A stretch of DNA of 51,135 nt, taken from NCBI GenBank assembly GCA_012517735.1, contig JAAYUK010000143.1, positions 1 through 51,135 of the forward strand, given 5' to 3'. Shown here in pieces: positions 1-46,541 of the stretch; within the stretch, counting starts at the first letter, position 1, and each line of letters opens with the position of its first letter. The position numbers were made by a program, and so were the translations under genes. This DNA comes from Nitrospiraceae bacterium. Lineage in GTDB: Bacteria; Nitrospirota; Thermodesulfovibrionia; Thermodesulfovibrionales; Dissulfurispiraceae. The notes under the pieces are model-generated. The model was given only the letters and a program-made list of their open reading frames with translations. It had not been told where the DNA came from and made no database searches.

Positions 1-85
1 AGGCGAATACCTCGGAGGACGGCTGGATGCCGTCCGAGAATGAGCGGCGTTGCCTGCCCTGCCGGCCTAATGACAATTCCAGGTT
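1..85 (+). repeat. Dispersed 190-bp inverted-repeat element, copy 1 (cut by window edge)
   Basis: This is the right-hand end of an element present in full at 12070-12259 and, inverted, at 46353-46541. Positions 1-78 match the right half of those copies almost base for base, including the hairpin GGACGGC-TGGAT-GCCGTCC and the terminal AATGACAATT block. The left half lies outside the window. No transposase is encoded here. Confidence 0.85.
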
Positions 86-11752: not shown

Positions 11753-12070
11753 ATGCAAACAACGAGGGTGCTTTTGAAAAACGTTGATGATGTGAATATC
11801 CCCGAAGAGATATACTGGTGCGTTTATGTTCTCAGATGTCGCGGTAACTATCTTTACACCGGATTGACGAATAATCTCGAAAAACGCCTTCGCGATCATG
11901 AGCGCGGCAGCGGCAGCAAATTTGTGCGTTCCCGCAGACCCTTTGAGCTGGTCAGGGTAATTCCATGCGTAACCCCTGCGGAAGCGAGAAAGCTCGAGGC
12001 CGCTCTGAAGAAGATGCGACGGAGTGAAAAAATGGAACGGCTGGGACTTATGTTTGAGCCGATACATTGA
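11753..12070 (+). CDS. GIY-YIG domain protein (UPF0213/YhbQ-like)
   Basis: A single GIY-YIG nuclease-like domain of about 80 residues. CVYVLRC..NYLYTGLTNNLEKRLRDHERG.GSKFVR gives the two signature strands, the catalytic-type Tyr and Arg and the His. A family glutamate position may be E in ARKLEAALK. Such short stand-alone proteins (YhbQ, UPF0213) are common and mostly uncharacterised. The ATG at 11753 lacks a good ribosome site; a TTG at 11774 with GAGG upstream would remove seven residues and may be the real start. The stop codon abuts the left end of repeat copy 2. Confidence 0.82.
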   Translation: MQTTRVLLKNVDDVNIPEEIYWCVYVLRCRGNYLYTGLTNNLEKRLRDHERGSGSKFVRSRRPFELVRVIPCVTPAEARKLEAALKKMRRSEKMERLGLMFEPIH

Positions 12071-12259
12071 ACCCAAAAATGTCATTGGATTCGATCACAA
12101 GCGCTCAGAGCCTGGCTGGACTGGCAACAGAGCGGATTTATTCGGCGAAGCGGCACATACAGGACGGATGTGCCAGGCGAATACCTCGGAGGACGGCTGG
12201 ATGCCGTACGAGAATGAGCGGCGTTGCCCGTCCAGCCGGCCTAATGACAATTCTGGGTT
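12070..12259 (+). repeat. Dispersed 190-bp inverted-repeat element, copy 2 (complete)
   Basis: Complete MITE-like element. The termini are AACCCAAAAATGTCATT (12070-12086) and AATGACAATTCTGGGTT (12243-12259), inverted repeats matching at 15 of 17 positions. Further in, CTGGCTGGACTGGCAAC pairs imperfectly with GTTGCCCGTCCAGCCGG. Two internal hairpins are visible: one built on GGCACAT/ATGTGCC, the other on GACGGC-TGGAT-GCCGTA with flanking pairs. No open frame encodes a transposase. No clear target-site duplication is seen. Copies at 1-85 and 46353-46541 share the sequence. Confidence 0.88.
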
Positions 12260-17959: not shown

Positions 17960-17977
17960 TCTGTCGTGGAAGAATGT

Positions 17978-18172
17978 GTACCCACCCTGCCGTGTGGTAA
18001 AAATTAGATCCCGTATTATCTACAGGTGGGTGCCCCGAAGACCGCTTAGGCTTTCTCCGTACGGAGACCTGCACACCGCCAGTCTTATACCCGGCTCCCA
18101 AACTATCTAATTTGCCGGATCAACACTTTTACCGAATCACGAACAGGGCAGGTATATCCGGCTGCATTACTC
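17978..18172 (-). ncRNA. ssrS: 6S RNA (ssrS)
   Basis: Small RNA that mimics an open promoter and binds sigma70 RNA polymerase. Minus-strand landmarks resemble known 6S RNAs: GGGAGCCGGG (near 18090-18099), AAGCCTAAG (18045-18053; AAGCCTTAA in E. coli) and CACCCACCTG (18023-18032), in the same order as in E. coli. The ends pair: ACCTGCCCTG (18144-18153) with CAGGGTGGGT (17980-17989), ten pairs with two wobbles, enclosing about 174 nt, the right size. An inner alternative stem AAATTAGAT/ATCTAATTT (18105-18113 with 18001-18009) also exists. A promoter lies directly upstream. 6S genes next to rny are, from memory, common in related groups. Exact ends are estimated. Confidence 0.75.
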
Positions 18173-46115: not shown

Positions 46116-46370
46116 ATGAAACAAGGCGGTGTCTGTCCGAAGCCGGAAGAGTTTTTCTTAAATGGCTCAGATACCGCGGTGATGGCACTCACCAACCGGC
46201 AGTCAAGCCGCTCGTCTGCCGGAGAATGGCAGTCCAGGTATTATTTGATTCTCTTTGCCAGCCTGATCGCAATCGCAGAAATCTTCACCGGCGGCGATAC
46301 CTCGAACGACAACATGTTTTTCAATTGGATGAATATGTTCCTCCCTTTTTCATCCGAGAATTGTCATTAG
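46116..46370 (+). CDS. Small open frame running into repeat copy 3 (84 aa), doubtful
   Basis: ATG 46116 has an AAAGG upstream and encodes one predicted membrane helix (YYLILFASLIAIAEIF). The last five codons and the stop come from the repeat terminus, so if it is real the gene was truncated by the insertion, or it is a remnant. No family recognised. Confidence 0.3.
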   Translation: MKQGGVCPKPEEFFLNGSDTAVMALTNRQSSRSSAGEWQSRYYLILFASLIAIAEIFTGGDTSNDNMFFNWMNMFLPFSSENCH

Positions 46371-46541
46371 CCTGGCAGGACAGGCAACGCCGCTCATTCT
46401 CGGACGGCATCCAGCCGTCCTCCGAGGTATTCGCCTGGCACATACGTCCTGTAAGTGCCGCTTCGCCGAATAAATCCGCTCTGTTGCCAGTCCAGCCAGG
46501 CTTAGAGCGTTATTGGATCGAATCCAATGACCATTTTGGGA
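46353..46541 (-). repeat. Dispersed 190-bp inverted-repeat element, copy 3 (complete, inverted)
   Basis: Complete element in the opposite orientation to copies 1 and 2. The termini TCCGAGAATTGTCATT (46353-46368) and AATGACCATTTTGGGA (46526-46541) match at 13 of 16 positions as inverted repeats. The internal hairpin of GGACGGC/GCCGTCC is kept, and the second hairpin reads GGCACTTAC/GTATGTGCC, where copy 2 has GGCACATAC/GGATGTGCC: a stem is preserved in both copies despite changes. Confidence 0.88.

Follow-up and report, generated by a model that had tools for sequence, protein, structure and literature searches.

Copies in the Window

The element described here adjoins a small, presumably GIY-YIG-like ORF in the window, i.e. 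the whole stretch of 51,135 nt that was analyzed. The sequence-only reading had claimed three related stretches; all of them are present (Table 1). They cannot be due to chance, as a pattern of 26 core bases has two matches in the window compared to 0.00 expected. Copy ends were defined by inverted repeats. The span 12070–12259 proposed in that reading does hold a copy, with two bases of the duplicated target included per side, and the spans 46353–46541 and 1–85 likewise hold copies, the ends of which had to be reset slightly. Since the third copy is cut by the contig start, this start appears to be a break inside a copy of the element. Compared to shuffled sequences, folding of 12070–12259 gave z = −4.1 for the + strand and z = −4.8 for the − strand. 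The window also contains a 6S RNA gene at 17975–18157 (−), recognized as Rfam RF00013 with 85.7 bits.

Table 1. Copies of the element in the window and anatomy of the copy next to the GIY-YIG-like ORF.
Feature	Position	Strand	Remark
Complete short-form copy, the element under study	12072–12257, 186 bp	+	bounded by inverted ends
Second complete short-form copy	46354–46540, 187 bp	−	flanks TTCAT / ATAAA, no match between them
Third copy, right part only	1–83	+	cut by contig start
Left target-site duplication TTGAA	12067–12071	+	includes TGA stop of the presumably GIY-YIG-like ORF 11753–12070
Left terminal inverted repeat CCCAAAAATGTCATTGG	12072–12088	+	
Outer stem P1, 5' arm GCCTGGCTGGACTGGCAAC	12110–12128	+	
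Conserved GAGCGG	12130–12135	+	P1/core junction
Hairpin hp1 (GGCACATACAGGACGGATGTGCC)	12152–12174	+	GGA in loop
Most conserved segment: CCTCGGAG, hairpin P3, CGAGAATGAGCGG	12184–12221	+	P3 with TGGAT loop
Outer stem P1, 3' arm	12223–12240	+	
Right terminal inverted repeat CTAATGACAATTCTGGG	12241–12257	+	
Right target-site duplication TTGAA	12258–12262	+	

Copy Number and Transposon Traits in the Source Genome

A whole-genome copy search, as the sequence-only reading had suggested, revealed at least 55 copies in the assembly, which comprises 2.71 Mb in 268 contigs and breaks at repeats. This number is a lower bound composed of 51 copies bounded at both ends, obtained from BLAST matches and an inverted-repeat search, and of copies cut by contig ends. 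BLAST with two queries returned at least 59 and at least 52 pieces, the best 40 candidates being scored in each case, and the end sequence of the element was matched exactly 63 times. The bounded copies, which range from 50 to 229 bp, fall into 13 mini forms (<80 bp), 17 copies of about 186 bp, with one copy of 128 bp counted in, and 21 of about 229 bp. The mini forms span about 50–71 bp and are devoid of the core. With CGGGG...CCCCGAAAATGTC...GACTTTTCGGGG the long form of about 229 bp exhibits a third hairpin, which was also observed at the equivalent place in a copy from another genus (L170:2836-3009, genome G002), so that the two forms are old subtypes.

The termini of the copies are imperfect 17-bp inverted repeats. 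Exact 5-bp direct repeats flank 22 of the 51 bounded copies compared to 3.6 expected from re-paired flanks, with a maximum of 11 in 5000 shuffles. Exact flank repeats of width 4 and of width 6 were found for one copy each, which makes the duplication specific for a width of 5. The duplicated target sites are mostly WTNAW, and the fourth base is A in 22/22. Inverted ends together with 5-bp target duplications are the signature of DDE-type cut-and-paste transposition. In the source genome the element thus combines inverted ends, a target duplication of fixed length and dispersed copies without a transposase gene; because of the 17-bp inverted ends and the 5-bp WTNAW duplications its copies are a MITE family. 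An IS with the same ends, a search for which had also been proposed, was found nowhere among the 63 exact end matches of this assembly of 268 contigs broken at repeats. Near 12070 no empty site is discernible in the same-genus genome G001, where the region is too diverged, and the intergenic regions of other relatives are likewise too diverged for such a comparison. At three places (L013:67-327, L011:1122-1381, L012:1109-1300) mini forms (about 70 bp) are arranged head to tail with full copies and share the 5-bp site with them, which suggests that elements insert into one another's target duplications.

A Conserved Core and Its Distribution

The interior of the element forms a module about 96 nt in length, in which two hairpins with GGA in their loops are carried on a variable stem. 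Its plan comprises P1 of about 20 bp, GAGCGG, P2 enclosing hp1, CCTCGGAG, P3, CGAGAATGAG and the other arm of P1. Among 60 relatives searched, the central 37 bp are multicopy in other genera, and according to named records the family occurs in MAGs of Thermodesulfovibrionales and Nitrospirae. A covariance model built from 22 sequences, the E-values of which are rough, has matches in 89 of the 159 genomes from the same order, many of them with at least 20 copies. Beyond the order, five genomes from further families of the class and one from a different lineage within the phylum gave matches. In G200, which is assigned to family f26 outside the class, three good matches (C78:2609-2750, C60:2311-2452, C174:3987-4126) point to either horizontal transfer or mis-binned contigs. 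Copy numbers can differ strongly within one genus, G018 having at least 20 copies compared to two each in G006 and G030.

Outside the source genome GGA is present in the P3 loop of 91/98 copies. The core is conserved across the order, and the AATTGTCATT ends are confined to the source genus. By eye, the inverted ends of the copies in G002 (L089, L161–L167) differ from these (CTAAGAGC..CTAAC..AATGA); some copies from other genera (flanks of L152, L203 and L131) carry ATTCATAAAT / TTTATGAAT ends. These differing ends give the impression that transposons of several types acquired the core. No Rfam family matches the element above its gathering score, and literature searches returned nothing on it. 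A phage or plasmid origin was rejected, as neither viral contigs, searched with one exact pattern, nor plasmids and phages gave a match.

Covariation and Strand Preference

The reading had suspected that a stem is kept although bases change, which is borne out by strong covariation across relatives. In an alignment of 101 copies, pairing is observed in 97.9% of the cells, and double changes occur in 24 of the 27 pairs. The covariation score of 0.62 compares with 0.06–0.09 for slid structures and was reached in 0/500 shuffles; the alignment was fitted to the model's own structure, and copies within one genome are not independent. Covariation beyond controls, as used to recognize a structured RNA, is therefore present. 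Neither of the outcomes that the sequence-only reading had named as speaking against it, no further copies in the genome and no covariation of the stems, did occur.

The count of G·T and A·C pairs in P1 provides a test that depends less on the alignment. Outside the source genome 1066 Watson–Crick, 87 G·T and 9 A·C pairs were counted, and the excess of G·T over A·C is present whatever the gene orientation. Selection on the complement would reverse this wobble bias, and double-stranded cruciforms would give none. In addition, the + strand of the model is more stable than its complement in 85/87 copies, by 9.5 kcal/mol on average. Because of the excess of G·T over A·C and the higher stability of one strand, selection acts on one single strand, either RNA or ssDNA.

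Gene Context and Retention at the Same Sites

With genes called crudely as the longest non-overlapping ORFs, 40 copies outside the source genome are antisense to both co-directional neighbors vs. 8 in sense orientation (p = 3e-6). Outside the source genus most copies directly follow a stop codon; in the genomes other than the source genome and G002, the stop codon of the right-side neighbor is a median of 8 nt away. In the source genome, 11 sense and 4 antisense copies were found; here the antisense placement of the other genera is not seen, in keeping with recent transposition. A cassette-like arrangement was observed in G018 (L084:3365-5078), where three elements occur in 1.7 kb with single small genes between them.

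Within one subtype, identity between copies amounts to 94% in the core and 42% in the outer half of P1 (flanks 29%); this outer half is nonetheless 95% paired. The combination of a conserved core with a divergent but paired outer stem indicates that P1 is particular to each site. The site-specific P1 might be explained by insertion of the core into pre-existing palindromes; the empty sites that bear on this idea are too diverged. At about ten loci two genomes, mostly of different genera, share an element of identical orientation, with flanks of about 70–94% identity. The subtype differs at some of these loci, so replacement or conversion occurs as well. In seven same-site pairs in common register, 19 changes in P1 keep the pairing (9 double and 10 single) and 7 break it; this comparison leaves out L150/L123 and L140/L126, which are out of register, and one missing pair.

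Alternative Explanations

Bacterial MITEs, reviewed in PMC10969869, resemble the element in being short, non-coding and dispersed in multiple copies, with inverted ends and a target duplication of fixed length. It could thus be a plain MITE, i.e. an internally deleted IS with a palindromic interior as mere by-product that is moved by a DDE transposase encoded elsewhere. The inverted ends and 5-bp duplications fit this explanation, as do the three size classes, including the 50–71 bp forms without core, and the adjacent copies with a common duplication (L011, L013). However, unlike in bacterial MITEs, it is the interior and not the ends that is conserved across the order; the ends are specific for the genus, with AATTGTCATT only in the source genus and other ends, by eye, in G002. 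Strong covariation of the stems, the constraint on one strand and an assembly without an IS bearing these ends also speak against a plain MITE, which we regard as unlikely. The earlier reading as a MITE hence holds for the inverted ends and the 5-bp duplications, whereas an interior conserved across the order is not that of an ordinary MITE. Its other suggestion, a REP-like or RNA-forming element, agrees with the structured, covarying interior but finds no support as far as kinship with REP/RAYT is concerned. Similar to REP, BIME and REPIN sequences with their RAYT, the element is palindromic, intergenic, of high copy number and located at gene 3' ends; in contrast to them it is conserved at the center instead of the ends, measures about 140–190 nt and shows no link to a RAYT. 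A substrate of an ssDNA enzyme, either HUH/RAYT as for REP or an integrase acting on the folded bottom strand as for attC, would explain strand-specific folding, high copy number and a position few bases past stop codons in which the strand that folds is antisense to the gene. Integron attC sites share this location after stop codons and this orientation of the folding strand; the element differs from them in being scattered and in combining a conserved center with a variable stem, an arrangement opposite to that of attC. The element-rich G022 and G094 lack Y1/RAYT genes, which the element-free G009, G020 and G044 possess; no element lies within about 1.5 kb of the examined Y1 genes, including two in G000, and retention at the same site between genera is unlike active cassettes. 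An ssDNA enzyme substrate is accordingly quite unlikely, and mobility by REP/RAYT is unsupported, given the mismatched distribution of Y1 and the lack of linkage between the examined Y1 genes and the copies. One such gene encodes a RAYT-like Y1 transposase of 286 aa (L088:1000-1860, −), which adjoins a dnaE-like ORF with no element nearby.

Two further explanations assign a function in RNA to the hairpins or to the position of the element. E. coli REP/BIME sequences are said to stabilize or process intercistronic mRNA, and the tight placement between co-directional genes, a median of 8 nt past the stop, would suit such a stabilizer or processing element in the neighbors' transcripts; this is very unlikely, since it is the antisense strand that is under constraint. 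The loops ACA(N)GGATG, compared with the consensus of CsrA/RsmA sites, resemble such sites, which raised the idea of a CsrA-binding sponge. It would be in line with the GGA that is kept in P3 loops outside the source genome and with the hp1 loops of the constrained strand, for instance ACAAGGATGT. sRNAs of the CsrB/RsmZ type likewise possess hairpins with GGA loops. Unlike these, the element occurs in tens of scattered copies, has no Rfam match and is not associated with csrA: 36 genomes have both, 53 the element only, 34 csrA only and 36 neither (p = 0.34). Furthermore, the csrA-free G010 (96% complete) retains GGA loops in 15/15 copies. The sponge is largely refuted by this distribution and can hardly be given credence.

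Proposed Function and Significance

We consider it moderately probable that the element belongs to a class-level family of structured non-coding modules, which in the source genus is borne by a MITE. Since only one strand of the interior module is kept able to fold, the module probably has a job rather than being junk. RNA is the more likely form of the constrained single strand: the form under constraint would be an RNA read from the + strand, in which G·U is tolerated and A·C is not. Most likely the element would then act as a transcribed structured RNA near gene 3' ends, and every copy may be under selection at its own site. Two points run counter to an RNA: the constrained strand usually lies outside the mRNA of the neighbors, as follows from the predominance of antisense copies, and similar strand signals are expected from folding of ssDNA. 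Retention and loss seem to affect the copies of a genome jointly, as if a partner acting in trans were required (G018 compared to G006 and G030); in genomes with nearly no copies this partner might have been lost along with them. Tentatively, and with less confidence than for the family of modules as such, one may think of a new class of non-coding RNA with tens of copies per genome, fixed antisense sites behind genes, a two-hairpin core, a site-specific stem, a partner in trans and capture by transposon ends in single genera.

The interiors of bacterial MITEs are usually regarded as junk. In this element the interior is the part conserved across the order and the ends are the part that changes, and the data strongly indicate selection on a single-stranded structure. 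The genomes of one genus that differ in having at least 20 or two copies offer a direct means of searching for the partner. If the module is an RNA, it would represent an unlisted family of very high copy number in a little-studied phylum.
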